Below, piece after piece: positions 13,018 through 54,493 of a stretch of 64,000 nt of DNA. The notes under the pieces were generated by a model. It did not search any database. It was not told where the DNA came from and was given only the letters and a program-made list of their open reading frames with translations. A program made the position numbers and the translations under genes. Origin of the DNA: Aradus depressus (taxonomy: Eukaryota > Arthropoda > Insecta > Hemiptera > Aradidae); NCBI GenBank assembly GCA_963662175.1, contig OY759224.1, forward strand, positions 36,527,489 through 36,591,488. Direction: 5' to 3'. Position 1 is the stretch's first letter; each line of letters opens with the position of its first letter.

Positions 13018-13205
13018 CCATGAAGATATACTTGAAGAAAACGCCGACAATCTGGAGTAAGAGACCGAGGATGTTGTCCATCTGCCCGTTAGCTGAAGTT
13101 TTGGTTGTCTTAAGAGTGATGAGGGCTATTGCTCGCTCCAGCGTGTAGAAGTACATACTCTCCAAAGTCCACGACTCGTGGCAGAAAGCTTCAGCCCAGT
13201 TGTCT
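13018..13205 (-). CDS. Gene A exon: pore helix, filter position and S6
   Basis: AG acceptor at 13206-13207, 62 full codons plus split codons, phase 2 in and phase 1 out. The product has a DNWAEAFCHESWT turret, YFYTLERAIALITL pore helix, then QMDNILGLLLQIVGVFFKYI for S6. Ungapped alignment of S6 (IVG...MG) to HCN channels puts T-T-K at the positions of the GYG potassium filter. The donor is GTCAGA, weaker than the GTGAGT of gene B at the same place. Confidence 0.85.
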
Positions 13206-13238
13206 CTAGACAAACAAAAATATTTGAACTCATGATTC

Positions 13239-14207
13239 TTAACCCTGGAATGCCCCGGTGGGGTCTGATGGACCCCAGTCGCACTTTGAAGTTAGTTTAC
13301 ATGTTGAATACTGCAGGCATTGCGCCTCTTGCTCCCTCTTATATTACCCCCCACCACTGCTTCTGATGTTACAGACATTCCTCAGTTTATTATGTTCTCG
13401 GCTTTCGTGTAGTGAAGTAGTCTATATAAGTTTGGGGTCCGACAGACCCCACCGGGGAGTTATCGACCAGTGTTTTTGTCCTTATTTGAGTTTCGTGAAG
13501 TGTCGTTTCTTGTCAATTTTTTATTTGTTAATTTTTTTTCTGCACTCAAAATGTCTAAAAGACGTAAATTGAGTGAAGAAGATATTAGAGATATTTTGGT
13601 TCAGATGGAAGAGAATGATGAGTACTTTGGAGGACAAGCTTTTGATACTGAAGATCACTTATTTTCTTCAATATGTGATGCATCTACCTCACAAGTAGTG
13701 ACCATTTTGGGAAAGAAAGTTCGATGTTGCTTCTGCGACCGAAAAGAAGACAAGAAAACTAAATATTTATGCTCAACCTGCCAGAGAGCCATGTGTTTAG
13801 ATCATAGATCATAGAAGTGCTGTGAATGTTGACATTTTTATGAGCAATTTCATCTTACCATTACACATTAAATCATTCATGTTAAGTATTCACTTGTTGT
13901 TTCATGTTATTTTATATGAAAAACATTCGAATTTTGTGTGAAATGTTGTGAATTTTCTTGCAAACTTGAGCTTTCTTTAGGTACTCATTCTTCCTACATT
14001 TTTTTCCTTTAAAGTTCGTTTTTCATTACTATTATTCATCCATCCTCTGTATAAATAAAAACCTGATTAAAGTTTTAGTTATTTCAATTTTTTATCATTG
14101 TTTCCTTCAATCCTTTCACTCAATTTAGTGAAATTCAATGTTGGGGTCTGACAGACACCACACGGGAGTTATGTGATGTGTTTTAGACCGGGGCATTCTA
14201 GGGTTAA
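13239..14207 (+). mobile_element. Internally deleted piggyBac element with TTAA target duplication
   Basis: TTAA at 13239-13242 and 14204-14207 flank a 961-bp element whose ends are CCCTGGAATGCCCCGGT and, inverted, CCCTAGAATGCCCCGGT (one mismatch). Subterminal GGGGTC..GACCCC boxes occur near both ends. TTAA duplication and CCC.. termini are diagnostic of piggyBac. The transposase inside is reduced to 87 codons, so the copy is non-autonomous. It sits in the intron between S5 and the pore exon of gene A. Confidence 0.92.
13551..13814 (+). pseudogene. piggyBac transposase N-C fusion remnant
   Basis: The ATG at 13551 starts an 87-residue frame. The first ~50 residues (MSKRRKLSEEDIRDILVQ and an acidic stretch) are the transposase N-terminus; they join directly to the C-terminal cysteine-rich domain (CCFCDRKEDKK, LCSTCQRAMCLDH). 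The DDD catalytic core is absent. A TAG stops it one step before the last KCCEC pair, next to a tandem GATCATA duplication. It could still bind element ends but cannot catalyse transposition. Confidence 0.8.
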
Positions 14208-14209
14208 GA

Positions 14210-15013: not shown

Positions 15014-15147
15014 TTGGGTAGCTCCCATTCGAAGTAGCGTTGTATCAGCGTGGCGAACCAGAGACATTTTGCACCCAAATCAGTCAAAAAAACGAATACT
15101 AACAACATGACTAAAATTCGAATATATGGAGTATCAATACTTATCGC
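15014..15147 (-). CDS. Gene A exon: S5 helix
   Basis: A strong acceptor (CCCCTCTGTTCTAG, ending at 15148) and a GTACGT donor (15008-15013) give 134 bp, phase 0 in and 2 out. Product: AISIDTPYIRILVMLLVFVF, then LTDLGAKCLWFATLIQRYFE and WELP. This fits S5 of HCN-type channels (hydrophobic run followed by ..C/G.L..L...). Gene B 55323-55456 has an exon of the same length with LTDLGAK at the same place. Confidence 0.85.
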
Positions 15148-16352: not shown

Positions 16353-16530
16353 TTCAGCTGATAGATTCACATAACGAATAGTTGGGAACAAATGAAAAAA
16401 CTTCATTATTTGGACCATAGTGAGCAGGTCATACAGGTTTCTTGAAATAAAATATTTGAATAATAGCAATAACACTTCAAACGGAAAACATCGCAGGAAG
16501 TCAATGGTAAAATGTGTTCTCAAGTAATGT
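16353..16530 (-). CDS. Gene A exon: S3 and reduced S4
   Basis: Acceptor ATGTTTCAG and donor GTAAGT give 178 bp. The entering A completes an Arg codon with the previous exon, giving R-HYLRTHFTIDFLRCFPFE, the S3 signature (HYLRTWF.DF-type) of HCN/CNG channels. S4 follows as MVQIMKFFHLFPTIRYVN. Aligned from the IRY end, the four canonical S4 arginine positions read K, H, P, R. The exon ends LSAE. Confidence 0.85.
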
Positions 16531-18142: not shown

Positions 18143-18349
18143 CTGAATATTGTCTTAATGTCGAGCTGAATTTTATAATCCTCATCCAGGTATCCAGTGA
18201 TGCAGTTCAAACAGGCATCTATAAAGCAGATGTAGTGAGCACTTAGGGTAATGCCACCCCACAAGTCTATGTCATCCATACTGCTGCTATAATGTATGTT
18301 GAGGGCAGCCAACACCAAGACTGGGATCATGAACAGCTGCCATCCGAAT
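18143..18349 (-). CDS. Gene A exon: S1 and S2
   Basis: Acceptor TTGTTTTAG at 18350, donor GTGGGG at 18137-18142; 207 bp. The first A completes an Arg with the preceding exon, then FGWQLFMIPVLVLAALNIHY (S1), an acidic loop, and LSAHYICFIDACLNCITGYL (S2) followed by DEDYKIQLDIKTIF. The ..D..LN..TGY.DED pattern is the conserved end of S2 in HCN/CNG channels. Confidence 0.88.
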
Positions 18350-19841: not shown

Positions 19842-20772
19842 ATGGAAAGTTCAATCGGCCCAGGCCCTCAGTCCATGGCAAAAGAGGGTGCTAAAATCTC
19901 CATGAAGGGCGCTGCGGATGTTGTGGACCAAGGCATCGCAGACGTCAAAACTACTTGCTCCAAACAAAACAAAGGTAAGGGTAAGAAAGGTGATGTAGTC
20001 CCCGGAAGGCAGTCCACCCCCACAGGGGAGACTGCCGAAAAACGGAGTGCCTCTCTAGATGAGGCAACTCTGGGGGACAAACCATCTGGCTCTGGGGTCG
20101 GGGGTAGCGACTTCACCCTGGTAAGTAAGAAAAAGAAAAAGAAGAAGAAGCGTCCGCAGGAGGAAACACCAACGAGCGTGGAGAAAGCAACTAAAAGGCC
20201 CAAACTAGGAACTACGAAGACGGAACTCCAAGTTGCCATCATTCGTACAGACGAGACCGACGTCCAGGAGGCGGACGTCAAACATATTAGGACTGCCTTC
20301 ATCAAACAGATTGGCGATCTAGAAGGTAGGAAGGCACGAGTCTGGAGGACTGTTGGCCAAGGTACGAGGAGTCTGGACTGGTGAGTGAGGGCATGGTGAC
20401 GAGGAGACGAAAGAATGGACGGTAAAGCTGGCCATTCCACCCAGAGGAGAGGTAATCTATGAGATGAGGACGGGGGCGGACATACCCCGTATGGAGAAAG
20501 TCTCCGTCTACATCCCAGGTGAGGACAAAGAACCAGTGGAGAAGATACTAGTATGGCTCAAGGGTCAGAACAAAGGTCTTAGGACAGAGAAATGGAAAGT
20601 GATAGGATACTATCCATCAGAGAAAGGGTGCAAACTATCACGACTGATAGACTCTGTATCTATACAAGTCTTAGAAAGTCTCAACTGGAGGCCCTACTAC
20701 CAGATGACTCGTATCCACGTAGAGAGGATAGGGGCACCGGCAGAGGGAGACACAGCAAAAGAGCGAAGGTAA
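19842..20772 (+). pseudogene. LOA LINE ORF1, one frameshift
   Basis: RNA-binding/structural ORF1 protein. The first part (ATG 19842, 180 codons to 20384) is Lys/Ser/Thr-rich with a poly-Lys run (VSKKKKKKKKRPQ) and the start of a folded domain (TKTELQVAIIRTDE). The second part resumes in another frame at about 20404 and reads EWTVKLAIPPRGEVIYEMRT, then VSVYIPGEDKEPVEKILVWL, and ends at TAA 20770-20772. The C-terminal domain resembles the DUF4780-type domain of LOA ORF1 proteins; no CCHC knuckle was seen. The shift lies between 20375 and 20405. Confidence 0.7.
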
Positions 20773-20773
20773 G

Positions 20774-23700
20774 ATGGGTGAATTACATTGTTTGCAATGT
20801 AATTTGCACAAGAGTAGGGCCGCGGTGGCGGAGTGCTCCAGGGTGCTCTCCACTATGAGCAGGAGTATGTGTCTGGTCCAGGAACCGTACACCGCCCGGG
20901 GCCATATAGCTGGCTGGGGCGGTGGCGGACTAAGGGTGTGGAGTGGAGAGCATCCTGGAGCACGAGCATGCATTGTCACCACCGCGGACATAGAATGCAT
21001 ACTGCTTAATGAGTTCTGTTCCAGAGATTTGACAGCGGTTAGTATTGGAACAGAAAACGGGAATAGGATGGTGCTTGCATCGTCCTATCTTCCCTACGAC
21101 GCAGAGACGCCTCCCCAGTCGATTGAGATGGAACGGTTGGCGGAGAGATGCAAGACAGTAGGACTTCCCCTAATTATCGGCTGCGACTCGAACTCGCACC
21201 ATACAGCCTGGGGAAGCTCGGACTGCAACAGGAGAGGGATTGAGCTATTGGAGTTTCTGGTAAGTCAAACTTTATTCACTATGAATAGAGGGGTAGAACC
21301 AACGTTCATAGTAAGAAATAGAAGTGAGGTTATAGATATTACTACAGTCTCGGAGGATATGTTAGATAAAATTCTAGACTGGAAGGTCTCAGACATACTG
21401 ACACAATCAGACCACAGACCGATAAGTTTTAAAATTAAAGCTAAAATTAAAGCTTTAAAATTAAAGCTGGAGAAATCCAAGAAAGGTGAACTGGAGAATC
21501 TTCGATAGGGAGATAGACACAGCAGTAGGAAATCTGGGGGAAACCACATTCTCAAATATAGAACAGATGGAAGAGACACTCAGAAGGATTGCGCTGGACG
21601 CCTTTGAGGCTGCCTGTCCGCAAATACGCAGAGAAACAAAGAGGGCACCGTGGTGGGGAGCCACATTAAGCTCCCTACAAAAACGATGCAGAAAACTAAA
21701 GAAGAAAGCAAGGAGATCTAAAGAGGAACCACAGTGGGTCCTTTACAAAGAAGCAAAGAAAGAATATAGCAAGGAAGTAAGAAAAGCCAAATGGGAAAAC
21801 TGGAAACGGTTTTGCGAGGAAGTTGAAGGGGCAAGAGAATCGTCGAGAATAATGAGGATCCTGAGCAAGTGCGGTGAAGCAAGGCTTGGGACGGTGAAAA
21901 GAAACGACGGAATTGGAACCCTCACTAATGAGGAAACGTTAGAAATAATGCTAAGGTCACATCTACCAGGTGCGACCTGGGAGAGACGAAAAGAGGAGGA
22001 TACAGAGAGGTCGAGCAATAGGCAAGACCAAACAATGGCTAGGGCAATTATTAGTGAACGAGCGGCTAAATGGGCTATAAGCTCGTTTGGACCGTTCAAA
22101 TCGGCAGGACCAGATGGACTTCCACCCATAATTCTTCAAAGAAGTTGGGGAAGACTAGGACAACTATGGAGTGAGTTAATGAGAATGAGCATTTCTACTG
22201 GATATATACCTAAGAAATGGAGAGAAGTTAGAGCAGTGTTCACACCCAAACCAGGGAAGGCAGACTACATGCAGCCAAAATCATACAAAATGATCAGTCT
22301 ATCGTCATTTCTTTTGAAAGGGACGGAGAAGCTGGTTGATAAGTACATCATGGAAGAGGGCAAGGTAGGAAAAACCCTACACAGAAACCAACATGCGTAT
22401 CTGAAGGGTACATCAACAACTACAGCCCTTCGCAGCCTAGTAGGTAGGATTGAGGAAACCATCGAGCACAAAGAGTACGCTTTCGGATGCTTCTTCGATA
22501 TCGAGGGGGCATTTGACAGCATATCCTTTCATAGATTTGAAGAGGCCCTACAGAAAAGTCAGGTAAACCCGACCATCATTAGATGGATCAGTAACCTATT
22601 AGCAACAAGAAGAGTGATTGCCAAACATGGCAGCGCCATAGCGGAGGTAAACGCCACCAAGGGCAGTCCGAAAGGAGGGTGTCTGTCACCTCATCTCTGG
22701 TGCCTGGTGGTGGACGAGCTCATCTGCAAACTGAACAGAGAGGGATATTACATGCAGGCCTACTCTGATGATGGAGTCATCCTGATCAGAGGAAAGTTTC
22801 TGGATACTCTCTGCTCTGCGATGCAAGCAGCCCTAGATATTGTAGGAGAGTGGTGCGAAGATAAGGGACTGACCGTTAGTCCGAACAAAACGAAACTAGT
22901 CCTCTTCACCAGAAAGAGGAAGAGAGAGGGTCTCTTTAGACCCAAACTGTTCGGACGAGAGCTGGAACTGAGTGATAATGTGAAATATCTGGGAATACAC
23001 CTGGACACTTCATTGTCATGGAGAATACACATCCAGGCCACCCACAATAAATCTATTGGGGCGTTCTGGCAGTGTAGAAGAGCAATCGGGAGAACCTGGG
23101 GTATTAGCCCTAAATCAGTAGTTTGGATATACGAGGCGGTGATCAAACCACTAGTCACTTATGCTGCGTTATGCTGGTGGCACAAGGTGGCGCAACAGAG
23201 TGTAAGCAGTAAACTTCAAAAGATAGTACGTCTAGTATGCCTTGCAGCAACCGGAGCAATGAGAACAACGCCCACGGCTGCTATGGCTATGATAGTAGGA
23301 ATTGAGCCTCTGGATGTATGTGTACAGACTTCAGCAATGAATACCTGCTGCATCCTCGAGGCTAAAGGAGAGCGGAATAGGGCGTTCAGAGGGGGACACT
23401 CCAGAATCAAAGAAGTATCAAGCGAAATAGACCCTATATTTAGATGGAGAAAAGATGAGATGGTACAGCGCACCAACCTAAATAGGAAGTATGCAGTAAC
23501 TATCGGGAGTAGAGAGAGAGCACAGCAAGAAGCAACAGAAGTCACTGGGAAGCATATACGATGCTTTACAGACGGTCCTAGACAGAAGGACACAGGACTC
23601 ACAGGAGGGGGTGTATGGATCCCTAGTCTGGAAGTGGGGGCCGTCATCCCGCTGGGATCCCATGCTATGGTATTTCAAGCGGAGGTGATGTCCATCCTGG

Positions 23701-24401
23701 AATACGCGTCTAGAAGAGAGGTAATGAACAGCGACATGGAGGAGGTGAAAATCTTCTCCGATAGTCAAACAGCACTCCAAGCACTTGCCAGCGCAGAAAT
23801 CAAATCAAAGCTGGTAAGGGAGTGCGCAAATCAGTTAAACACCCTAGGAAACTGCAAGAAGGTTGGACTCTACTTGGTTCCCGGACACTCGAGGATCCAG
23901 GGAAACGAAGAGGCGGACCGGCTAGCCAAGGAAGGTTCAAGTAAGCCTTTCATAGGACCAGAACCGGTGCTAGGAATATCTCGGGAGACATACCGAACCC
24001 GAATCAAAGAATGGACTAAGGACCTTTTGGAGAATACTTGGAAAGAAAAGACCACATGCAGGCAGTCGGAGATGTTCCTGGGAGGAGAGTCCAGGGTTCT
24101 GAAGGACGGGATCCTGAACCTCAAAAGGAACGAGCTCAGGCAACTGACTGGAGTTCTCACAGGACACGGTCCGTTCAATAGACACCTACACACTGTGGGA
24201 GTCAAGGACAGTCCTACCTGCGATAGATGTGGGGAAGAAGACGAAACGGCGGCACACTTCCTGGGTATCTGCTCGGGATATGCGCGAATGAGATTCCACA
24301 TCTTTGGTAGAGATGTAATCGCAGAGGAAGACTTTAGAAAATTAGACTATGAGAGCATTCTTAGGTTCATTAAGGAAACTGGGAGACTGAGCACTCCATG
24401 A
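20774..24401 (+). pseudogene. LOA LINE ORF2: endonuclease, reverse transcriptase, RNase H; one frameshift
   Basis: ATG at 20774, one base after the ORF1 stop. About 1200 codons once a 2-nt shift near 21455 is allowed for. Domains in order: apurinic-like endonuclease (QEPY, IIGCDSNSHHTAWGS, SDHRPISF); a WRNPRKVNWR linker; reverse transcriptase with PGKADY, GCFFDIEGAFDS and YSDDGVIL (Ser in place of the usual Ala of YADD); RNase H (CFTDG, QAEVMS, FSDSQTAL, GHSRIQGNEEAD); and a C-terminal CDRCGEEDETAAHFLGIC knuckle. Apart from the shift and the matching one in ORF1, the frame is intact. Confidence 0.88.
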
Positions 24402-24548: not shown

Positions 24549-25397
24549 TGTAATGTTCTATATTGTCCATTACATGTAATATTTAAGAAATGGAAAATAA
24601 GATACTTAAATACAATCATTTTATTAGACCTAAGGAAGGTTACTGGGGGTTATCAAATCGATTTGTACCAGGGTCGATATAGTATCAAAATATATCAATT
24701 CATTTATTTCAATTATGTCATAAAATTAAATGATAAGCTAATAATTAGTTAACAATAAATGTAAGCAATTAGGATTGTATACGGGAATATGAAAATGTTA
24801 AAAAAAAACCCCAGATGTTTAGTGTTAAAGGCTGTAAAAATTGTGGCCAATGACAGAGCGGAATCAAAAACGAGAGAGAAGTGGGCTGTCCCCTCGTGGA
24901 GAGTAGGTAGTAGATGTATGAGAGAACTGTGCAGAGAGAGATGGTTCAGTGAAAGTGAGTGTGGTGAATGGTAGAAAATGTAAGTGATTTCTTAAAGGCT
25001 GTGATAAGAAGGAAGAGTAGCTGAAATACTTGGAATCCAGAAGAGAGGAGAGGACGTGGCCGCAGTTGCGACACCCCATATTCAACGTACCACGATGGAA
25101 ACATCATTTTACCCACCAGCACAATAGAAGAAAAGAAAGCTGTCCCGCAGGTTTAGTTGAATGTTGTGTTTACAAAGAAAAATCTCTATGTATGTAAAAT
25201 TTTTATGTGTTACTAACCCATAAAAACGTGTCTTGATGAATTTTAAATATAAAAAATTGTAACAAATTATTTTAAAGTCTTTATTTTTATTTATAAATTA
25301 TACATAACCAGGTCCTCTAATAATCGTTATTGCATATAACTATTATTAATATAAATTTAAATAAGAATTTCAAGTAGCGCAATAAGAGAGCGTTACA
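24549..25397 (+). repeat. 5' LTR (849 bp)
   Basis: TGTAATG...GTTACA, containing a 'cccataaaaacgtg' block and an AATAAA-poor AT-rich 3' half. Same length as the 3' LTR. Confidence 0.93.
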
Positions 25398-25470: not shown

Positions 25471-25555
25471 AAATTATAAAAGGACCTTATGTGTAATTTT
25501 GTAGAAATATTTGTAAAAATTAATTTCAAAACTGTATAAAAAGTTAGCGTCCAAA

Positions 25556-26461
25556 ATGGCCGACTATAATAGAGGTTCTCAGAGAACGAATCCGAACAAT
25601 AATGGCGGACAAAATAGAGTAACTAATGATAATTGCCTTCAGCCGGAGAGTGAGACGAATGTAAATTTAAACACAATGATGGAAATGATGATAAAAAATT
25701 TTGGGCAACAATCAAAAAATTTTGAGCAACAATCCAAAAATTTTAATGAAATGAAGGTAGAACTAAATTCAAAAATTGATGAAATAAAGGAGGATGTAAG
25801 CATAAAATTTGAAAATGTAAAAAAGAATGTAAACAAACGTTTCGATCAATTTAATAAAATTGTTGATCTGAAATTTAGTGATCAAAGTTTAGAAATAAAT
25901 CATAAATGTGAACAATTAAATAATAAGATAGAAAGTGCGGTAGAAGCTGTCGAGAGTAAATTAAATCGAAATATGATTGTAGATAGACAGGAAAATGGAG
26001 AAATAAAGGAAAATAATGAAACACAGAAGAAAATAAAATTCAATAAGAAGATAGACAAATTTAAATTTATTAAAACCATAATAACTAATGGTATTGTTAT
26101 AAAAAAACATAAGTATGATAATTGTAGAAAAATAAAAGTATTATATCATAAAAAGATCCCGAACTTAAGAAAACATGAAAGAAATAAAAGGAAGAGTCCT
26201 AAAAAATTTGGATGTAGAGAAATAAATTCAGATAAATGTGTAAATATAATTAACAAAAATTACAGTTATAAAAATTATAAGAGATCAAATTTTAAACATA
26301 ATAATAAAGAATATTTTGAAAATTCAAAAACATTATACCTAGGTCAAAGGCAGGAACAGAAAGACAGAAAAATAATTATAAATAACAATCATAAATATCG
26401 GAGAAAAGATAATCGTAAACTAAATTATAAATATAAAAGAAAGAAAATAATAAGTGTTTAA
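25556..26461 (+). CDS. Gag-like protein of the LTR element
   Basis: ATG 25556, 301 codons, extremely A-rich. Residues 1-40 are Asn/Gln-rich, and 45-150 form a likely coiled coil (repeats of QQSKNF, then FENVKKNVNKRFDQF and heptad-like CEQLNNKIESAVEAVESKL). The remainder is highly basic (Lys/Asn/Arg/Tyr-rich). No CCHC knuckle, protease or polymerase motif is present. By position it is the gag product, which would assemble particles and bind RNA. The low-complexity tail may instead be drifted sequence. Confidence 0.6.
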   Translation: MADYNRGSQRTNPNNNGGQNRVTNDNCLQPESETNVNLNTMMEMMIKNFGQQSKNFEQQSKNFNEMKVELNSKIDEIKEDVSIKFENVKKNVNKRFDQFNKIVDLKFSDQSLEINHKCEQLNNKIESAVEAVESKLNRNMIVDRQENGEIKENNETQKKIKFNKKIDKFKFIKTIITNGIVIKKHKYDNCRKIKVLYHKKIPNLRKHERNKRKSPKKFGCREINSDKCVNIINKNYSYKNYKRSNFKHNNKEYFENSKTLYLGQRQEQKDRKIIINNNHKYRRKDNRKLNYKYKRKKIISV

Positions 26462-28542: not shown

Positions 28543-29391
28543 TGTAATGTTCTATATTGTCCATTACATGTAATATTTAAGAAATGGAAAATAAGATACT
28601 TAAATACAATCATTTTATTAGACCTAAGGAAGGTTACTGGGGGTTATCAAATCGATTTGTACCAGGGTCGATATAGTATCAAAATATATCAATTCATTTA
28701 TTTCAATTATGTCATAAAATTAAATGATAAGCTAATAATTAGTTAACAATAAATGTAAGCAATTAGGATTGTATACGGGAATATGAAAATGTTAAAAAAA
28801 AAACCCAGATGTTTAGTGTTAAAGGCTGTAAAAATTGTGGCCAATGACAGAGCGGAATCAAAAACGAGAGAGAAGTGGGCTGTCCCCTCGTGGAGAGTAG
28901 GTAGTAGATGTATGAGAGAACTGTGCAGAGAGAGATGGTTCAGTGAAAGTGAGTGTGGTGAATGGTAGAAAATGTAAGTGATTTCTTAAAGGCTGTGATA
29001 AGAAGGAAGAGTAGCTGAAATACTTGGAATCCAGAAGAGAGGAGAGGACGTGGCCGCAGTTGCGACACCCCATATTCAACGTACCACGATGGAAACATCA
29101 TTTTACCCACCAGCACAATAGAAGAAAAGAAAGCTGTCCCGCAGGTTTAGTTGAATGTTGTGTTTACAAAGAAAAATCTCTATGTATGTAAAATTTTTAT
29201 GTGTTACTAACCCATAAAAACGTGTCTTGATGAATTTTAAATATAAAAAATTGTAACAAATTATTTTAAAGTCTTTATTTTTATTTATAAATTATACATA
29301 ACCAGGTCCTCTAATAATCGTTATTGCATATAACTATTATTAATATAAATTTAAATAAGAATTTCAAGTAGCGCAATAAGAGAGCGTTACA
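28543..29391 (+). repeat. 3' LTR (849 bp)
   Basis: Same start, end and length as the 5' LTR. It is preceded by the purine-rich AGCAGAGGGCAA. Confidence 0.93.
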
Positions 29392-29912: not shown

Positions 29913-30104
29913 CTGAACAAACTGTACGGATGTATGGTGAAGCGGTGCTCCCCTTGATGCTCCCCTATCTCCCGCTGTCGCTCTCTGTGGGTGAGGAAGA
30001 AGTCACTCTGACAGACGCGTTGGTTCCCAGGCCAGAGGCAGAACAGTCCCGATCTGAACATCTCCTCTTTGTGAAGACATTGGTGGGGTCCTGCATTCTG
30101 ATTC
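29913..30104 (-). CDS. Gene A exon: cytoplasmic N-terminus up to S1
   Basis: Acceptor TTTTTTTTGACAG and donor GTAAACC enclose 192 bp open in the required frame: 63 codons plus split bases. The product includes MFRSGLFCLWPGNQRVCQS, a charged stretch, and ends GEHRFTIHPYSLF. IHPYS.FR.. just before S1 is a hallmark of the HCN/CNG N-terminal region. The two leftover bases AG plus the A of the exon at 18349 make the Arg codon, so the 11.5-kb intron between them is well supported. An upstream exon is needed but was not found. Confidence 0.85.
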
Positions 30105-35946: not shown

Positions 35947-36575
35947 GATTTAAATGTAAAATAATAATAAACAGTTATCTGCCAGCAATTATTAAATCCT
36001 CCTTTACTCGTTGCAATTTTCATCCTCATAACAGAGGCATTGAATGCGGAATGTGGATTTCATCTAACTGACGGGTAGGTGCCTTATTTCAGGAAAGAAA
36101 GAAGACTACATCCAAATCCAAGACCAACAGTCGCTCTTCAACTAATAGTTTCTTTTATCCACTTTTTGCATTTTGGCATGTACTTGCGGAAATTCTTTTA
36201 TTATTTTTAGAAATTTCTTTCGTGGCAATTTTAAGATCTGAAAAAAAAAAAAAAAATACAGTAAATTATCAATAAGTTCTAAATATAAAAAAATCATCAT
36301 TCAAACAGGTAAAATATGACTGTCAATCTTAATTTCCTGACAATATTATAATAATTTCGTTTTTGTTTTGCTTAACGTATATGTACTCCCAACTAGGGCA
36401 GAAAGGACCAGCTAATATTTATATTAAGCGTATGAAATATTTTTAGAGTTTAATTATATTTTCTTTACTAGTAATTTCATCGGTAAACTGGATTTTCCTT
36501 AACTTTTAGACGTCTATAAACTAAGGTAACGTTTGTTCATTAATACTGTCTCTTGGCTTTTATGAATATCCATAT
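34650..36575. other. AT-rich DNA without a recognised gene
   Basis: It includes a poly(A) run of about 55 bases at 35889-35945. A block at 35200-35850 has repeated 'ttcttataaacgatgttcttataacc' phrases. No exon or RNA gene was recognised. Confidence 0.45.
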
Positions 36576-37649
36576 AATATTGTGATATATTGAATATCAG
36601 AGACCTAGTGGTAGATATAGTTCTGAGAGCGACCACGAATAGCGCACTAGTTGGAAGATACATAAAGTGGAGGGGATGAAAATTCAAGTCTGTTCCTGTG
36701 TCGGAGAAGAGAAGACTACCGTTTGAAGTGTCAGAGGAGGTAGACATTCCTGGTTGAGTGGCCGTGGAAGACGGACTTTGATAGTTGAGCCGTCGGAGGA
36801 GGTAGAGACTCCTGTTTAAGTGGCCGAGGTAGGCAGTCATTCCTGGTTGAGTGGCCGCAGGAGACAGACCTTCGAGTTGAGCTGTCGGAGGAAGGAGACT
36901 CCCGTTTGAGCTGACGTAGGAGACAGAAGACTCTCATTTTAGCTGCTGGAGGGAGATCATCCCCGCTGTCTATTTCCAAGGGACTGGAAGTTCCTCACCT
37001 CTTCGTGAATTCTGGATGAGAGACCGCAGGCTGGAGTGTGGTTTGAAAATAGAAGACTTTTAAGGTAACGCAACCATTTATTTTACATTTTTCTCCGACA
37101 TCGAGACGAATTGCTGGCTGATCATCAATAGACATCTTCATATTGCGGGGGTTACAAGAACATTTAAGATCATATAAATTGTTTCATGTTTTATAGATAA
37201 GTTATTCCAGATGTTCGAGTCTTGGAGGGACGCCTCACTATTATATGGTCAATGATTGTTTTAATAAATGTATGTTGTCTTATAAATTGTTCTCTGAACC
37301 CTCTATAGCCTAGCTCACATATACTTTAGCTAACCCAGATACAGGACAGAAAAGGGGACGTTTTCGTATTTCTCTTTTGAAAAGATATAAGAGAAAAGGG
37401 TTGAAATTGACGCAGGGAATTGACAAGGGGAGAAACCGAAACTAACTTAACGCCGCAGACGGAATTGACCAGGATTCTTGGGGTCCTACGAACCCCCGGC
37501 TAGTTGAGTGATAATTGGGTATTTTTCGAAATTCGGGAAAATATCCATACTGGGCACTTTTGTAAATAAAAATTGTAATTAATGTATCATATAGTTTAGC
37601 GTTCATATATTTTTTTTGTTTTGTTTTGTGTTAATATTTTAGTTATTTT

Positions 37650-38005: not shown

Positions 38006-38838
38006 TCACTTTGGAAAGATATCTCAACAGACATGATATTTTAATTCTTTTGACTGTCGGCTGATTAAATATAATTGATAGATAAATAATGAAAATTCTT
38101 ATTAACATTGTTAGAAATACTTTTGGATGCCTTGATGATTAAATATGGTGCGAAGTAAAGAATTAAAAATGGTAATGGTAATTATTATATAGAGAAGGAT
38201 ATTTGACGATAAATAGTGATACGAAAGTTTATGGAGAATTTTGTGAGCCGAAAGAGGGCCAATCTACGATGTCAGGAAAGGCATTCTTCGTCGATATTTG
38301 TGGTAATTGTGGATATAGATGCGTTGAGAACATTTTTCGTCGTTATTAGTATTTCAATGCTGTGGAAGCATTCTTCGTCGGTCGTCGTTAATAATTGATA
38401 CCTAAGTGGGGTATTTGGAATGAGATTTGATAGCAAGGAAATGAATGTTGATAATTAAAGAAGAATTTCATTATCAAGGCACATGTATAGATAAATAATA
38501 AAGAATTTGAAGAATAAATAATAAAGAATTTAAGGAGTAATGAGGAATAAATAATGAAAAATAAATAATTTTAAGTAATAATTTAATTAAATAAGCCGAC
38601 AGGACAAAGCTGATAAAATATGAGACAGACAGACAGACAAACATATTCAAGCCATTTTAAGCCATTGTTAATTATATTGTTAAATTGTATTATTGTAAAA
38701 AATTGTAATATTGTATAAGATTGTAACCGTGTAATATGTTCATAAGTGAGTGAAATTAGAATCAAGTAGAAAAGAAAAAATTACGTCGCTACCTTAACAA
38801 ATGTATCTCCGAAATTTTTTTAATCAAAGGGAGGCAAT

Positions 38839-39726
38839 TGTGATATATTGAATATCAGAGACCTAGTGGTAGATATAGTTCTGAGAGCGACCACGAGTAG
38901 CGCACTAGTTGGAAGATACATAAAGTGGAGGGGATGAAAATTCAAGTCTATTCCTGTGTCGGAGAAGAGAAGACTACCGTTTGAAGTGTCAGAGGAGGTA
39001 GACATTCCTGGTTGAGTGGCCGTGGAAGACGGACTTTGATAGTTGAGCCGTCGGAGGAGGTAGAGACTCCTGTTTAAGTGGCCGAGGTAGGCAGTCATTC
39101 CTGGTTGAGTGGCCGCAGGAGACAGACCTTCGAGTTGAGCTGTCGGAGGAAGGAGACTCCCGTTTGAGCTGACGTAGGAGACAGAAGACTCTCATTTTAG
39201 CTGCTGGAGGGAGATCATCCCCGCTATCTATTTCCAAGGGACTGGAAGTTCCTCACCTCTTCGTGAATTCTGGATGAGAGACCGCAGGCTGGAGTGTGGT
39301 TTGAAAATAGAAGACTTTTAAGGTAACGCAACCATTTATTTTACATTTTTCTCCGACATCGAGACGAATTGCTGGCTGATCATCAATAGACATCTTCATA
39401 TTGCGGGGGTTACAAGAACATTTAAGATCATATAAATTGTTTCATGTTTTATAGATAAGTTATTCCAGATGTTCGAGTCTTGGAGGGACGCCTCACTATT
39501 ATATGGTCAATGATTGTTTTAATAAATGTATGTTGTCTTATAAATTGTTCTCTGAACCCTCTATAGCCTAGCTCACCTTCTGAGTACGCACGTTAACCCC
39601 AAAAGTAAATTTATTTTCATATTAAATAATAAAAGTTACAAAGAACCCTAGGAAGATCATCACAATGTATGATGAACTGCGCCGGGTAAAGCTTAAAATT
39701 AATAATAAGAGGTAAAGAGCATCACA
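38839..39726 (+). repeat. 3' LTR of the element
   Basis: 888 bp from TGTGAT to ATCACA; the termini are complementary. It is the fullest copy of the family in the window. Confidence 0.7.
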
Positions 39727-41967: not shown

Positions 41968-42066
41968 GTGAGAGTTGTCTATAGCAATTGTCTGGTTATC
42001 TCTTCTTGGGTTATACTTTAATAAACTTCGGGCGCCGAAAAAATCTCCAGCATTAAGAATATATTC
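41968..42066 (-). CDS. Gene B exon: cNBD phosphate-binding cassette region
   Basis: Acceptor AG at 42067-42068, donor GTAAAA, 33 codons. LNAGDFFGARSLL replaces the FGE motif with FGA, and RRDNQTIAI follows. Same length and phase as gene A 7171-7269. Confidence 0.85.
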
Positions 42067-45000
42067 CTGAAATGAAAACATTAGATTAATAGTAATTACA
42101 ACAATTTACAACTACAAGTCTCCCGTGTTACAGCATTATCTATGTACTGAACAGAATTCTTCTAAGTCAAACAAAATATAGCTGTATAGCTTAAATAAGG
42201 TACAAATTCATCATATACATATGTTTGTTACCTGATGTTCTTTGGTCTGTAACAAAATAGCCCCTTTAGTTACAAAGTACATTCCTTCAACAATAGAATC
42301 TATTTCATAAATTACTTCTCCTCTCAGATATATGTCTTCGTACAGGTACTTCATGAACTTATCGAATACTTCTGTAGGAAGTTCTTGGAAAAGATGTGAG
42401 TTTATCAGTATTTTTTTATATCTTTCATACAGAAGCCCCTGTTGTGCATAATAAACAATTCTATTGTATTTAAAAACTATAAAAATCAAGCAAAATTAAT
42501 TTTCATTAAAAAATAATTAACATTTAATGTTAATAAATTCCTACATTTATTTTGATGTAGGTACTATAATTCCTAGTAACTGGTTAACCTTTGCTTTTAA
42601 AGATTGAGTTCAGAAATGTAAAAATAAAAAGTTTTCTGTCACGATTGAAGAGAGTTTAGACGATGCATTTTTCGAAGAAGCCAAGTCAATGATATTTGCA
42701 GACCATCTTCCAAAAGTTTATAATAGCATGTTACGAAATAATGAATAAAGTTTCGAAAATTAGAGATAGAAAACAAGGATGGCACAAAGAAAATGATAAA
42801 ACCTCCATTTTCTTGGATGTTCAATAATGTCAGTTAGGACAACTGAAGTAACAAGGCAGTCATGTAATGGGTCACAGATTTCATGATGAGTTTTCATGTT
42901 TTCCGAACCTATTCTATATCTAAAATGAAAAACCTTGTGAATCAGCAGCAACGTACATTCCAAGCTCTCAAGTTCATTAAATTGGGGGGTAATTTGAGAG
43001 GAATACCCCAACTTTGATATCTAGCTTCAGTTCATTCTATTGAGAGTAATCATATCCAGAAACACACACAGCTACCACAGTAATCATATCCAGAAACACG
43101 CACAGCTACCACAGTAATCATATCCAGAAACACGCACAGCTACCTACCACAGTAATCATATCCAGAAACACGCACAGCTACCACAGTAATCATATCCAGA
43201 AACACGCACAGCTACCACAGTAATCATATCCAGAAACACGCACACAGTCAGACAGCAATTTGAATATAATTTCAGTTTTATCGGAATCAGGGGATCGGAA
43301 AACATGAAATTCTGGTGGAAACCCAACATCACATTTAGATAGTCGGTAGAGAGGGTAAGGAGGTTGAGATAGTCATCCCCATTAACCGCCCCCCCCCCCC
43401 CCACCCATAAATTCGCCACTGTATCTTACCCTTTTGAGACGGGTACTCAACATGTCAACAACCTCAGACTCATTATAGTAATCAGAGAAAAATTTGTACT
43501 CATAGTGTTCCAAGAGAAGCTTTTGTACTGAGGGGGTGATGTGCCTCTTGGGGAAGTGATCAGTGAGCATACACTTGACCTGCTCATAGCTGGAGGCAGT
43601 GTGATTCAGGTAGAGGAACAACAAGATAACCTGACCTGCGTGCGCAAACAGAACAATGATTAGATACATCGGCAATTTCTCGGAGAACGGGGAAACCTCC
43701 CGAGAGATATTTATACCGTCTGATTCGAGAAAAAAAAACTACTTTTCTGTTGCTTAATTGCATTAATTAAACATTTGAAAATAAAAAGTATCGTAAACAA
43801 CACTTAGAAACAACCAGTAGAATAACGGCTACCTGAGCCAGACAGACTTTTCACTTTTCGTCTGGCGCCAGTCCCTTTCACTTTCGGGGCACCTGAGGAA
43901 TCCTACGACCTCCAAACCATCGAAACAGTCTTAACCATTTCCTTTCTCTTTTTACCCCCCTCCCTTTCTGGGGCACCTTGGTTGCTCCCTCACTTTGTAC
44001 TTCACCAGGTCAAAATGAGTATGCCGTCCTTCGGAGTGAAAGTCAGTCTTCTCCACCAACTGGCCTCTTATTATTGATACTATGTGAAAGGATTCTCGCA
44101 ACGCCCTCTTCTTTGTGTACCCCTTACCGCCCTACGCCCTATTATAGTTCTTGATCTACTTATGCCGCTTCTTTGTGAACCACTTTTCCGCCTTTTTTCT
44201 CTTTTTGTTCTTTTATGTATGGCATGCCGCTCCTTTGTGTACCACTTGCCGCCCCCTACCCACCTCTTATTGTTCTTTGATCTACTTATACCGCTTCTTT
44301 GTGAACCCCTTGCCGCCTTACCCCTTCTTATTATTCTTTTATCTACGGTATGCCGCTCCTTTGTGTACCGCTTGCCGCCCCCTTCCCACTTCTTATTGTT
44401 CTTTGATCTACTGTGCCGGTTCTTTTTGTAACCGCTTGCCGTCTTTTGTATCCTATTCATCTGTCATCTCTCTCCAAAGTTTCCTCTCTCCCTCTAAACC
44501 TACCTCAAAGTCTACATACTATACATGTGTTTTTGAAATTGTACTATTGGGTAGTGCGTAGGTTTTTCTGGAATGAAGCACTAATACAGGTTAATGTAAG
44601 TATAATTGAAATTTTCTTATGTACGTGAACTATCTAAACCAATCAACAAGTGTATTTCGAAAATATTTTTGTTTTGAAATGTATTGCTGTTTTATTTTTC
44701 TCATTATATGAAAATAAATAAATTTATTATTACAGAATACCCCTACAGTGTCTACGTACAAACCCTGCGTCAATCATTTAGAAATATAATAAAAATAACT
44801 TTAACACGGAGATTCGAACTCGAAAACAAAAAATAATTCAAAAGATTTACACCGATAGCTGGTTCATTTTCACAAACAGCTATCGGTGTAAATCTAATCT
44901 TATAACTAAATTTAAGGGGTATAATATGAGACTATACATTTATGCTACGCCGCTGTACTGAGGGTAGAAAGAGAGTTAACCCTAGAATGACACCGTGAAT

Positions 45001-48000
45001 TTCGTCACCACTATTGACATCGTGGGGTGTCTGACACCCCAAGCCCTTTATATAATTTTCTTGTAATTTATTTTTCATATTAATCCAAAATTAATGCAGA
45101 TTTAATATTTTAGAATGTATGTAATGGATATAAAACAAACAAACAAAATTAGAAAGTTATTTTAACTGAATAGGAAAAAAATCAAATAAGGATGTAACAT
45201 GTTGAAACAGTTAAAAAGTAGATATAGATAAAAATACTGGACGAAATTTTATTTGTAAGAAAGGTAAAAACTATTATTTTTTTAAAAAACTCAAGTATTG
45301 TGACTATGTAAAAAAATCACTTTAACAAGAAATATATACAACAGCACAGTTACACTCAGTCACAATCGGTGCACTTCATTAGACGATGATCGTTGCACAT
45401 CGGCCTCTGGCAGCTCATGCAAACCATTTTGTATTTTCTATCCTTATCTCTGTTGCATAAAGAGCATCTCATATATTTGCCAGATGGTATAACAATTGCA
45501 GTAGATGGAGTTGAGCTTGAGGGTTGACCCAAAATTTCATGTATGAGTACTTTCAAAGTTCTACTTAAATGATTGATCTTGGGCCGTTCCACTAAATATG
45601 GTTTGAGTAATTGGAATCCAAGTTCATTAAAAAAATCTTTTCTGGGCATTGGCTTCCTCCAATTGACCATGTCATACAGTACACCTGCGTTGACATGCGG
45701 GGACATCGTCTTGGCACAATGTGGTCGAAGAGTCTTCACATGTGCTGGGCTCCTCATGTCTCACGAATGTGTCATCTAATTCCTCTTCAGAGTCTGAATG
45801 AACATGGGTTTCTACATATTCTTCTTCAGAAGAACTGCTCCCAGTTCCTCAATATCCTCTCTCCTCAATTCTTCGAGATACACCAACAGTTCCTCATCAG
45901 TCCACTGCCTCTTTTGAGATGCCATAACTTTCCTAAAATATATAAATATACATATATAAAACATATAAAATATATAGTTATAAAGAAACCTATTGGCGCA
46001 AAACCCACTTCCAACTCCACAGTAAACATTAACTATAACGATTTAACACATAAACTATAAACAAAGCCATAAAAAAAAGAACTTACCTGTAATAGGGGAA
46101 AAAAAAAGAATGACGTCAATAACACCGTGGGGTGTGAGACACCCCAAGATCACTTCAATGTTGATTCCTGAAGTCACAAGGGCCTACTAAAGGTGTTAGA
46201 AGTCCCAGTAAGGTTAGGCAGGAGATGACTGTGATTTACATAGGGTCGGGGGACTTCTGTGAACTATAGGAAATTAAGTAATACACTTTAACTTGCCAGT
46301 CTCTTGGTTTGAAAAATACTTTTAAAAATACATTCTGGGACCGAGGTATCCTAAGAATAAATACATACAGAGTAAAGAAAATGAAACAATGAAATATAGT
46401 ATCAGTACAAAGAAATAAAAATATAGGTAGGTAAATAAAAATTAGTGCTACATTGGAGAAAAACTATACAACTAAAAAATAGATAAACAAAAGATAAACA
46501 GGAAATAAAAAAACAGAAAAAAACATAAAATTAACAACTTCAATATGATGAAAAAAAAAATAAAATAAAAGTATCTACAAAAATAAAAGAGAATAAGTAA
46601 AAAAGAAAAAAAGCAAATCTATATAACTAAAAAATAAATAAAATTGATAATATAAATCGACCTAGCATAATACTATGATGGTTGATTATAAAAGAGAAGG
46701 AAGGATGCCCAGCCAAGGTTAAAAATAAAAATAATTTAGAAAGCAGAAAATAAGATAAGATAAAAATAAATAAATGCATAATAAAAATATATTAATGTGT
46801 AAATGAGCCAAAAAGGAATACTATTGGTTACGATAATGAATAATTTAGGAAATATGATAAAAAATATATAATAAAAATAGAGAATGACAAAGACAAAAAT
46901 GATGTAAGATTGAATCATGAAATAAAAAGATAGGTAGGTAAATAAAAATTAGTGCTACATTGGAGAAAAACTATACAACTAAAAAACAGATAAACAAAAG
47001 ATAAACAGGAAAAAACATAAAATTAACAACTACAATATGATGAAAAAAAATAAAAAAATAAAAGTATCTACAAAAATAAAAGAGAATCAGTAAAAAAGAA
47101 AAAAAGCAAATCTATATAACTAAGAAATAAATAAAATTGATAATATAAATCGACCGAGCATAATACTATGATGGTTGATTATAAAAGAGAAGGAAGGATG
47201 CTCAGCCAAGGTTAAAAATAAAAATAATTTAGAAAGCAGAAAATAAGATAAGATAAAAATAAATAAATGCATAATAAAAATATATTATTGTGTAAATGAG
47301 CCAAAAAGTAATACTATTGGTTATGATAATGAATAATTTAGGAAATATGATAAAAAAAATATAATAAAAATAGAGAATGACAAAGACAAAAATGATCTGC
47401 GAAGGGGCGGGTTAAAAATATTAATGGCCCCAGAGGGTAGGTTGTGGTGGGAGAGAGCTGGGGAAGTGATTCAAGCGAGAGAGGAAAAATCTAGTGGAGG
47501 ATGACGTCATAGGGTTGAGCTGGGGAGGTACAATGGGTGAAGAGTTGCGTGATACATTGATTGTGATTCAAGGCATAAATTGAGACATCGTAGTGGCTGC
47601 TGTAATGTGATGATAAATAGAAGGTGTAAAGTTTTTGGGATGGGCGATTGGCTGCGCCAACTTGTGAAAAAATTAGATAACTGATGTGGTATGTAAGACT
47701 AGATTGAAAAAGGAGGAAAAATTAGAAGAAATTAGGATCTGTTCATAAGGATGACCTTGCATTGGGGAAGTTCATATGTGATTGAGTGGGGGCTATCTCA
47801 GAAAAACCTATGCACAACCCAATAGTACAATTTCAAAGACGCATGAATATGTAGACTTTGAGGTAGGTTTAGGGGGAGAGCGGAAACTTTGGAGAGTAAG
47901 AGAGAGATGACAGATGAATAGTATACAAAAGACGGCAAGTGGTTACAAAAAGAACCGGCATAGTAGATCAAAAAACAATAAGAAATGGGGAGGGGGCGGC

Positions 48001-51000
48001 AAGCGGTACACAAAGAAGCGGTATATATAAATCAAAGAGGGCGTAGGGCGGCAAGCGGTACACAAAGCAGCAGTATAAGTACCTAGATCAAAGAACAATA
48101 AGATGGGGTAAGGCGGAAAAGTGGTTTACAAAGAAGCGGCAAACGTAAATCATATAGTATAATAAAATAGGGAGAGTGGCAACAAGAGGTACACAAAGGA
48201 GCGGTATATTTAAACCAAAGAACAATAATAAGACGTAGGGTGGCAAGGGGTCCACAAAGAAGTGGCAAACATAGATCACATAGCATAATAAAATGTGGAG
48301 GGCGGCAACAAGAGGTACACAAAGGAACGGTATATTTAAATCAAAGAGCAATAAGAGGTGGGGAGGGGGCGGCAAGCGGTACACAAAGGAGTGGCATACC
48401 GTAGATAAAAGAATAATAAGAAGGGGTAAGGCGGCAAAGGGGTTCACAAAGAAGCGGCATAAGTAGATAAAAGAACAATAAGAGGTGGGTAGGGGGCGGC
48501 AAGCGGTACACAAAGAAGCGGGAACCGCAGATCATATAGCATAATAAAATAGGGAGAGCGGTACACAAAGAAGCTGTATATTTAAATCAAAGAACAATAA
48601 TAGGGCGTAGGGCGGCAAGGGGTACACAAAGAAGAGGGCGGTGCGAGAAACCTTTCACATAGTATCAATAAGAGGCCAGTTGGTGGAGAAGACTGACTTT
48701 CACTCCGAAGGACAGCATGCTCATTTTGACCCGGTGGAGTACAAAGTGAGGGAACAGCCAAGGTTTGAGTGAAGGGGAGATAATCGATAGTTGATATCGA
48801 CCTTTCACGTAGTATCAATAATAAGAGACCAATTGGTGGAGAAGACTGACTTTCACTCCGAAGGACGGCATGCTCATTTTGGCCTGGTGAAGTACAAAGT
48901 GAGGGAGCAACCAAGGTGCCCCAGAAGGGGAGGGGGGTAAAAAGAGAAAGGAAATGGTTAAGACTGTTTCCATGGTTCACATAGTATCAATAATAAGAGA
49001 CGAGTTGGTGGAGAAGACTAACTTTCACTCCGAAGGAGGGCATGCTCATTTTGACCTGGTGAAGTACAAAGTGAGGTAGCAACCAAGGTGCCCCAGAAGG
49101 GGAGGAGGGTAAAAAGAGTAAGGAAATGGTTAAGACTGTTTCGATGGTTTGGAGGTCGTAGGATTCCTCAAGTGCCCCGAAAGAGAAAGGGACTGGCGCC
49201 AGACGAAAAGTGAAAGGTTCGTCTGGCTCAGGTAGCCGTTATTCTACTACAACCTATATTTTTTACGATTCCATACATAGATTTTTAATTGATATGCAAA
49301 TGCACATAGGTCACATAGCCTATTTTTAAAATTTTGCTTTTAAAACTACTACATGTAAAATTTTATGACAATCGGATAATCCGTTGATGAGGTTGAACTA
49401 TTTTTATGCTCAACCTCCATTCACAGTCCCCCCTCCCCATAGGATTTTCAAGACGCCACATACCCTTTCTTTCAATTTGGCTTTTAAGAACACTACATGT
49501 GAAATTTCATTACAATCCAATTATCTGTTAATATGTTAGCATAATTTTTATGCTTAGCCCCCCCCCCCCCCCCCCTCCCCCTAATAGCCCCTGTTAAGAA
49601 TTTGGAGACACCACACACCCTATTTTTCAATTTGGCTTTTAAGAATACTATATGTTAAATTTAATTAAAATGCGATCATCCGTTGATGAGCTAGACCTAT
49701 TTTTATGCTTAACCCCATCACAACCCCTCTTTCCCTTAAGAATTTTGTGACGTCAGATAGTCTATATCTCAATTGGCTCTTAAGAATACAACATGTGGAA
49801 TTTCATCACGATACGACCATCTATTTATGAGCTAGCACTATATTTATGCATGCCCCCCCCCCCCCCCCCCCCTTTAAGAATTTTGAGACCTCATTGGGTT
49901 TTGACTTTAAATATGAAATTTATGTTGATCATTTTACTCGGCAGTTATTAGGATTTTTGAATTGTGCCCTCTATCCTCAGCCCTCTCCCCCCTTCAGCTG
50001 ATTCCGCTGAAAATTGATAATATGTCGTCCTTGTGGAGATTTGAATTCACTTATGAACTTTGGTGTCGAAACATTAATTCTATTGGTAATTATTAGAGCT
50101 TTCAAGTTATGCTTCTCCCGTAATCCCCTTTCCTTTTGGTCGAGATTTGGCTGAAAAACAATAGGTTCGTCGTCATAGGGTTCTGGATTCACATATAAAA
50201 TGTTGTGTTTATACATTCATTCTATTGGGAGTTATCGTGTTCACAGACAGACAATTGTTTCTTCATATTTGGAATCTAGAGGTCGGAAAACATGAAATTC
50301 CGTTTAAAAGTCCGTATCGAATTTTCGACCGATTACATAAGTTGCCAACAAGTCTAGACCATAGCTGGGCAAGTGAACCGCACCTTGAGCTACATTTAAT
50401 TGTACATTTAGTATTACCCAAATATTTGACATTTGGATGTCTGAAACTTGTTAAAATAACCTCATAACAATATACGAGAAGAAAAAAAATAAAGATGAAA
50501 ACAGTTTTTCTTTATTGCTGTAATGTTCGGGTTCTGGTGCTTGCTATGACGTTTCACCAATTTAACTTCTGCACAGGTCTATGGATGCCCCATGGACTGT
50601 TCGCAACAGCCCAACCCATAACTAAGTGGGTTCTGATCAGATGTGTAACTATCGTTTTTGATCCAGTGGGTTACTTTTAGCCCCTGATGGACTGATTCTG
50701 AGGGGACCAGCACACACATAAAAAGTTTACTGACTCTCACCATGAAAATGTCTATGGATGCCAGGGATCAATTAATTATACTAACAGCACACTGACCTGT
50801 AAATTCCAAAGGCGTGAGTAAGCGGAGGCCTATGTGAGTTGTACTGGAACTTAGGAGAGTGCTAGCAATGTCTTTGCTAAATTAAATTATCTACTCATAT
50901 GTAAAAAGAGATATATAGAATAAAGAAAAATAGGTTACAATTAAGTAACAAAACAGTAGTACGACGACCATCTATCTCAAACATGTTTAATTCTATTCCG

Positions 51001-54000
51001 TATGTAAATTATAATATCCAAAATCATTTAATTTACATTTTTATACCTTAAACAAGGAAGAGAAGGAGTGCATTTATTAACATTGAAATATAAAAAAAGA
51101 AAGGTATATTGGTTTCAAGAACATCATACCTAGGACAGATGTCGAATATCGAGTAGATCAGAGGTACCTACCAGGGGCTCCTAGATCACACACACGATAC
51201 TTTTACTCACGAGTAGTATCGAAAAAACGTTCGATACTACTCACATATCGAATAAAAGTGTCGACACCTACTCGTATCGATTGAATCGAGTAGTTCGTTA
51301 TAATTAATTTTTAAAAATGTATAAATCTATGTAAGATATTGATAAAAATAGTATCAATTGAATCGAATACTTCGTTATAAATAATTTTAAAACTATTTAT
51401 AATATATACACTTATATAATAATAATAAAAAACATAATAAAATTTGAAAGGTATAAATGAGATATTGTAGCGGGTATAAGAAACAAGTAAATCAAATCGA
51501 ATAAGATAAAATTATATAATTAAAAACGTACTGAAAATAATAAAAAGCTTATAAAATAAACATACAATTTATTTTTACTATGGATATAAAACTACTGGAG
51601 ACTATTCGTATTCCCACAATATTTCACTTTTTTAAAACACTTTTTGCAAGTCGCTGAGATCGAATCGTTCTTAGTGTAATACATTTACGAGGCATTATAA
51701 TTTGTAACTGACAAAATGGAATGTAAAAATAAAATAAAATGCTGAATATATTATAAATAAATAAAACAAACTTATTTTTGAAATATTGTCTATTCCACTA
51801 AAGATATATATACATATATAACTACCGGTTTCGGCTTTATACCATCGTCAGGTCTAGATATGAACTAAGTCAGTTTGCAGAGAGCGACCCTTCAAATACA
51901 TCTCAGGTCAAAGGGGGCTATTAGAACTTGGGAGTCCCCCGGCTGTACCGTTAGCTAACTCATGAAATATTTCTTAACAAAACCTAGTTCTAAATTTACA
52001 TAAAACAATGTCACTAGACTAATACGGGAAAAATAACAAATAAATAAGTACAAATACAAGTAAATAATAAAAAATAGAAATAAAATTAATAACAATGTTA
52101 AGATTTAGATAACTTGAAACATATATGTGGAACCAAATATTAATAACAGATAATACAAACATATATGTGGAAACAGAACTGGTTTAGGGTGTTAACAAAG
52201 GGGAATAGTTGAAATAAATTTGGTCATTCATACAAATGTTCCTTTTGTTAGCTTTATTTATTTCTAATTGTTCTAAGCTATTAAGTAGCCTGCTTTTTGG
52301 GCAATAATGGAGATATTTGATGCCTGTAGATGGGTCGAAAGTGTGGCTATTGTCAATTATGTGGGTCGCGAATGTAGAACGGTTTCCTCGGTTCTTTATT
52401 TCGGCCGTGTGTTCTTTAATTCTTTCAACTAAACCGTTCTACATTCGCGACCCACATAATTATTGTCCGGCATATTCAAATTCACAACACTATTTTTATT
52501 AATTAAACCAGATGGTCTTAATTCAATGATTTTATGTCTTTAGGATTTTTATTGGAATTAATGGTATGTCGCATGAGCTCATGAGAAATAGAATTTTCCT
52601 ACTTATTGAGTTGGGGTTGGTGTTTTCTTCCTCGTACTCGGATATTCATTTCGTCATTGGCCATGTTCTGTCCTCTTCTATCCATAGCACAACCAGCTCG
52701 AGCCTATGCAATATACTTCTTACATAGTCGCCGCTGTTGAAGGGACCGTTCAACCATGACTGCCGATTGCCGACTGCTGACTGTCGACTTTTTATCTTGT
52801 TCCATGCTCCTCCCTCCTGTACTGCTTCCTTCATTATTATTATTTTTTTTTACTATGTGGCAGATACACAGATTGCCACAATATATGTACCTATATCATT
52901 GGTCAGTGGACCGTAATTTGAGTTTAGTATTTTATTGCAAGAACAAATAAAAGAAAATTGTAAGAAATTAAACGGTGAACGATTTTGATGAATTGAAAAA
53001 TTTATATAATTGTTGAAATTTGAAACGAGTACTTTGAATCGATACAAGTAATTTTTATTCGATAACTATTTGGTACGTACCAAAAGAACTAGGTGTCGGC
53101 CAAAATAACACACTCGCCCCTCAACCTTTAGGGGCAGTGGACCTGCAGACGCTGGTTGTGGACAAATGTTCAACTATGGCAGTGATAGTTTTTTATATTA
53201 AATTCTGTGCTGTTTTGTCCCAGGATTTATTTGATAATAGTGATATAAATTAGACAATGATTTTGGATATTACAAGATAAATAAAACAAACTTCCTTCTC
53301 AAGTATTGTGTATTCTACCAACAAAAAGCAATCTGACGATAGTGCAATGCCGAAACCGGTAAAATACTCGTATGTATAACAATTTTCGTGAAATAGTAAT
53401 TTCAATATAAATTTTTTTTTTTACTCAATAATACTAGATTCTACAATATATTCAATTTTCTCAACTAATTGTTCTATTGCGTACCTTTATACATTATTTC
53501 AATCAAGTAATACCGAAGTATGTTGCCGGCACACAGTTAAGTGGCCAGATACCCCAATTTACAAAAATTTCCGAAAATTCTATTTTAATAAAATATTAAA
53601 ATAATTATTATTGTTTTCTCTTTCTTCAAGTTTTTGGCCTTCCGAATCGAATAGAACTACTCTCAAACTGAAAAGCTTAACCGTTTTGAAAATATATACG
53701 ATTTTTAACCTGAAATTTCTTTAAAATATCCAATTTTTTTTTATAAATTTTATAATTTTAAAATGACTATTAAAAAATAACTTTTAGCAAATAAGTTCTT
53801 TGGAAATTAAAATCTATTTAAATTAAAAAGTTTTAAAAGAATGTCGGTGCATGAGGTGTAATAATCTAATGCTCGATTTAGCTCACGAAAATTCCATGAT
53901 TACAGCTTGAAAAATTTGCATAAAAATGGCGGAAATTTTCTAGAGGTTGTTTCTTTGATTTTACTCCAATTTTAGAACGGTCAAGTGCGGTAAACCGAAC

Positions 54001-54493
54001 TAAAGTCAATGTACAACATTTTTTTTAATTGTAAAAAATATGAATTATGAATCCCAAATTCACTCTCTTAAAAAAAATTGACTTATCTCCCATAATGTTA
54101 TCAGTTTTTGAAATATGAAGTTACACGCCCTAGCCTAGTTATATGTACATTTCATATGTTACAAGCGGATCGTTGAAAGTTACTCACCCATCACAATTAG
54201 CATATATATAGTTCCGGTGATCCGGAGTAGGAGTGTGATTATGTTGTCCAAATCAGTGTTGCCCTTCACTTTAGTACTGGTCATGGTCAGGAAGGCCAAG
54301 GACCGTTCCATAGAAGTCAAATAAAATGACCGAAAACTCATATTTTTTTCTCGATAGAAGTGTATCGCCCAGTTGTCTCTGTATATTCGAATGTTGTACA
54401 TAATAATATTAGTAGGTACCTATGTAATTGGGTTCAATATATATATATATAAATAAGCTTCTACGTCATGGGTTGGTGAGAGCTATATATATA

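Follow-up and report, generated by a model that had tools for sequence, protein, structure and literature searches.

The pacemaker channels HCN1-4 are built, in order, of an HCN domain, S1-S6, a C-linker and a CNBD, with a CIGYG filter in the pore. In functional HCN channels the pore ranks with the most conserved parts, and their cAMP contacts are the glutamate of an FGE motif, an arginine, and the C-helix. Many insect proteins are labeled “HCN-like” in databases. Other channels have part of this plan: six transmembrane segments, a C-linker and a CNBD in the case of the CNG channels, and six transmembrane segments with a CNBD-like domain in the case of the KCNH (eag-type) channels. According to the excerpt available, a study of CNG evolution rooted its trees with human HCN1-4 (PMC9803222).

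In the open-access literature searched, no HCN relative other than fish HCNL1 came up as having a dead pore. As excerpted, a review describes for it a pore that is non-functional through filter changes, a nucleotide site lacking an essential arginine, and protons passing through the voltage sensor, with methionine at the third S4 arginine position (PMC10651576); the excerpt of another terms the pore domain non-conducting (PMC11700363). The two genes described below, A and B, resemble zebrafish sperm HCNL1, so far as these partial sources describe it, in being HCN relatives with an altered filter, a probably degenerate nucleotide site, and, in A, an altered S4 (PMC10651576; PMC11700363). Proton conduction, however, is a property of HCNL1, and the likeness is one of description and does not imply orthology. 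Among the titles and abstract openings listed there for insect or invertebrate HCN genes, altered filters, duplication, or silent pores, none describes genes of this kind.

The window (the whole stretch of DNA analyzed, 64 kb) contains a tandem pair of HCN-like genes, both on the minus strand and arranged head to tail: gene A extends from ~30.1 to 6.5 kb, and gene B from above 55.4 to 36.1 kb (Table 1). The positions that an earlier note on this DNA gave for the two pore-S6 exons are exact. Beyond these, each gene has an S5 exon, a pair of CNBD exons and a terminal exon; an HCN-domain exon and S1-S4 were found in gene A only. Both proteins end shortly past the CNBD.

Table 1. Exons of the two HCN-like genes, in window coordinates.
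Gene	Feature	Position	Strand	Evidence
A	HCN-domain exon, ending IHPYSLFR across splice	29913..30104	-	HCN1 alignment; motif simulation; no Pfam match
A	S1-S2 exon	18143..18349	-	HCN1 alignment
A	S3-S4 exon, S4 charge-poor	16353..16530	-	
A	S5 exon	15014..15147	-	tblastn with S5 of B, E 1.4e-4
A	Pore-S6 exon, filter region TLKTTK, weak donor	13018..13205	-	
A	C-linker exon, in-frame donor GC	10740..10945	-	
A	CNBD exon 1, in-frame stop at end	9005..9208	-	
A	CNBD exon 2	7171..7269	-	tblastn E 4.7e-6
A	Terminal coding exon, AATAAA downstream	6511..6627	-	
B	S5 exon	55323..55456	-	
B	Pore-S6 exon, filter region TMTSTK	54188..54378	-	
B	C-linker exon	43430..43635	-	
B	CNBD exon 1	42232..42438	-	cNMP_binding 2.4e-13 for joined B
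B	CNBD exon 2	41968..42066	-	
B	Terminal coding exon	36142..36237	-	

Chance is excluded as the source of the HCN matches of A and B, and the proposal that both genes are HCN-related holds up, with HCN1 and HCN4 as the best matches among solved structures. A profile of the two proteins places HCN4 and HCN1 in the lead (8.2e-22 for HCN4), far ahead of CNGA1 (9.5e-7) and KCNH1 (9e-5). With phmmer, 365 residues of gene A have HCN1 as their top solved-structure match (7e-16), and a 368-residue version that includes the HCN-domain exon and omits the CNBD matches it at 3.2e-17. For gene B, the 279 residues searched in the same way give HCN4 at 1.7e-10, with SthK, a bacterial CNG-like channel, close behind at 2.8e-10; this near-tie is confined to B, as SthK falls far below HCN for gene A and for the profile. 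The pore and C-linker exons of B by themselves find nothing significant among solved structures (best 0.27, again SthK).

S1-S6, C-linker and CNBD are collinear with HCN in gene A, in an A-B chimera, and in the profile, and in gene B from the pore region on only. The N-terminal exon of gene A reads IHPYSLFR followed, across the splice, by FGWQL, and aligns with IHPYSDFRFYWDL of HCN1; by this alignment an HCN domain ending in IHPYSxFR is present in A, and none was seen for B. A single copy of IHPYS.FR was found in the window, and none in any of 100 simulated windows.

The single Pfam match above the curated cut-off is that of the complete B protein to cNMP_binding (50.3 bits; E-value in Table 1); single exons and gene A, including its first 368 residues, have no Pfam match. 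Protein searches with B (709 candidates, none at E<=1e-3) and A (1771 candidates, none at E<=1) brought up no relatives, but neither returned any HCN at all, so that the collection is taken to be poor in animal proteins and the absence means little. Among viral contigs 30 pattern stretches were picked out and none confirmed, and among bacterial and archaeal genome contigs 57, likewise with none confirmed.

GYG, GFG, and TIGE are all absent from the two pore exons, as the earlier note had said for GYG and TIGE, and the CIGYG of pacemaker HCN is not found in A or B. Between pore helix and S6 both genes lack one residue relative to HCN, so that the filter can be aligned in more than one register. 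Single-sequence phmmer alignments put T-T-K (A) and S-T-K (B) at the GYG positions, with a gap between filter and S6. All three MAFFT modes place K-T-T (A) and T-S-T (B) there, with the shared lysine next; the profile gives the same register against HCN4, and the match of gene B to SthK, itself insignificant, also has T-S-T with lysine following. The claims that the alignment is ungapped and that T-T-K and S-T-K stand at GYG are thus incompatible, given the missing residue, and by most alignments the residues named are one position off. In the K-T-T register gene A has an extra lysine inside the filter, and the lysine common to A and B comes just after it. Two threonines and a lysine of the filter region are shared by A and B, which also retain the S6 glycines. 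The shared residues of the filter region suggest that GYG was lost before the duplication, although two sequences cannot prove it.

The earlier note had held that GYG in an alternative pore exon would count against its claim. The window, read in six frames, contains eight GYG or TIGE matches, and no frame that holds one resembles a pore. Two of them fall between the S5 and C-linker exons of a gene: the first, at 12133, is in a frame of 26 aa on the same strand as the gene, and the second, at 51821, in one of 28 aa on the strand opposite; neither is pore-like. The one tblastn match to the HCN1 pore in the intron of gene B, at 48045-47893 (E 0.009, 24.5% identity), contains a stop and no GYG, and is taken as chance. 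The known A and B pore exons were not among the best five matches listed from this search, which would therefore detect only exons much closer to HCN1. Comparison at the sequence level supports a diverged HCN-derived pair with a non-GYG filter.

The differences from HCN1-4 extend beyond the pore. The S4 stretch of gene A has lysine or arginine at 2 of 31 residues, against 9 of 39 in the HCN1 chain; every third residue along it gives Q K H P R N A I, as compared with R R K C R R R R in the HCN1 chain, so that the ladder of Lys/Arg at every third position is not found. Aligning gene A with HCN1, phmmer opens a nine-residue gap after S4, between it and S5. At the nucleotide site, the FGE of HCN is FGA in B and FGS in A, the CNBD glutamate being replaced in both; an arginine pair follows in both, in ambiguous register, and the C-helix is short. 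S5 is poorly kept between the copies (16 of 44 residues identical), apart from an LTDLGAK that is invariant in the S5 exons of both genes and places an aspartate and a lysine within a predicted membrane helix.

Comparison of the two copies shows where selection has acted. The 267 codons that were paired encode 132 identical residues, with a pN of 0.30 (0.72 for randomly paired codons) and a pS of 0.79, which is saturated, so that no dN/dS ratio can be given for the pair. The count runs from S5 to CNBD2 and takes in neither the terminal exons nor, for A, the HCN domain and S1-S4; a single pore codon of B and the last part of CNBD1 are also outside it. A saturated pS with a pN this low means that the proteins of both genes were selected. 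By exon, pN is 0.43 in S5, 0.41 in the pore, 0.20 in the C-linker, 0.24 in CNBD1, and 0.26 in CNBD2; for S5 and pore together it is 0.42, against 0.23 for C-linker and CNBD, an excess reached in none of 2000 permutations. Past purifying selection was stronger in the C-linker and CNBD than in S5 and the pore. Within the pore exon the filter block is identical at 3 of 9 positions and the rest at 22 of 53, so the filter shows no more conservation than the residues around it. Against HCN4, the P-loop and S6 are identical at 15 (A) and 12 (B) of 64 positions and the C-linker at 11 and 10 of 69; the pore is thus not worse kept than the C-linker in this comparison, and the contrast holds between the copies only and does not imply assembly with HCN.

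The two genes are in different states. Gene B runs for 310 codons without a stop from S5 to the terminal exon, with GT-AG at all five introns, and shows no damage in the part seen. Its S1-S4 were not found in 55457-64000 by tblastn with those of A (best E 0.46), and a frame at 55666-55818 considered as its S2-S3 exon was dropped, having no similarity. In gene A, the in-frame donor that follows the C-linker exon is GC where GT is expected, the donor of the pore exon is the weak GTCAGA, and CNBD1 has an in-frame TAG at its end. Of the two, B is probably the functional copy, and gene A is probably decaying or carrying assembly errors.

It could be that both genes are relics, now neutral, in which the filter decayed along with the rest. 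The stop and the two poor donors of gene A are what such decay would leave, and introns filled with transposons and the S1-S4 of gene B not seen in the window would also be in keeping with it. This is nevertheless unlikely: the pN of 0.30 against a saturated pS of 0.79 over the 267 codons opposes neutral evolution of both copies, an outcome that the earlier note had allowed for, and we infer from it that for most of their separate history neither was neutral, though A now looks damaged. Gene B, moreover, is still open with all its introns canonical, and the terminal exons of A and B are still alike. What was selected might be a conducting channel with a new filter, in which threonine and serine side chains and a ring of lysines select other ions or invert cation selectivity. 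The residues shared in the filter region and the retained S6 glycines would fit, as would purifying selection on the protein, but this reading is decidedly unlikely with just 3 of 9 filter-block residues identical, S5 and the pore diverging fastest, and the shared lysine lying beyond the filter in most alignments. The same points weaken the suggestion of the earlier note that a lysine in the filter could alter selectivity.

The products of the pair are probably channel-shaped proteins that conduct ions in some new manner or do not conduct at all. The ~2-fold faster divergence of S5 and pore relative to C-linker and CNBD, together with a filter no more conserved than the residues around it, favors over a new filter the reading preferred here, to which we would give about an even chance: A and B would be a tandem pair descended from HCN genes, their central pore having ceased to be a K+/Na+ filter of the known type, and would encode non-conducting pseudo-channel subunits comparable to HCNL1. 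Their products would still fold and assemble, the HCN scaffold being retained for assembly or signaling, while the central pore would no longer pass cations selectively; the subunits might silence or retune a partner channel, or alternatively couple voltage or ligand to another partner. Against this, fast divergence of the pore could also reflect adaptation to a new permeant ion, the comparison is of two sequences with saturated synonymous sites, the S1-S4 of B were not seen in the window, and the damage in A would also fit decay of the whole cluster. A dead central pore might go together with protons passing through the voltage sensor, as in HCNL1 with its methionine in S4 (PMC10651576 and PMC11700363, both as excerpted). 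Gene A has a histidine at the third S4 position in steps of three, and the Hv1 gene is reported, in the excerpt available, to be missing from hemipteran and holometabolan insects (PMC10377628). Such a pathway is very doubtful, however: the S4 concerned is that of damaged gene A alone, its alignment has the nine-residue gap, and HCNL1 is known here by description and not by sequence. It would likewise be a long shot that in an insect lineage a tandem HCN family lost both filter and S4 ladder and turned into another kind of device, such as a sensor proton pathway that arose, in animals lacking Hv1, independently of fish HCNL1, or a Thr/Lys pore of new selectivity.

If A and B are indeed pseudo-channel subunits, they would be a second case of a dead pore, one with purifying selection in its past, and would show that HCN scaffolds have been reused beyond pacemaking; the pair would also offer natural substitutions in filter and S4 with which to test the role of each part.

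The window is rich in retrotransposons. One non-LTR element (20732-24398, plus strand), with matches to endonuclease, reverse transcriptase, and RNase H, lies in gene A, within the intron that separates the HCN-domain exon from the S1-S2 exon; another (59230-63280, minus strand) lies upstream of S5 in gene B and has a 458-codon PRE_C2HC frame and an 897-codon endonuclease/reverse transcriptase frame. Frames at 13416-13814 (plus strand) and 45356-45760 (minus strand), without Pfam matches, may be related to parts of piggyBac-type transposases. The gene A intron that follows the TAG-ended CNBD1 contains frames that we take to be reverse-transcriptase-like; two were tested and had no Pfam match. 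An inverted repeat in the pore-to-C-linker intron of gene B (43816-44088 and 48976-49248) has 273-nt arms that are 95% complementary, and there are direct repeats at 36579-36878 and 38837-39136 (99% identical) and at 46551-46850 and 47044-47343 (97%). A further pair, at 24549-24848 and 28543-28842, is reported as 100% identical over 300 nt, with its copies 3994 apart and a 314-codon frame (25517-26458) between them; these repeats are perhaps the ends of a young mobile element.
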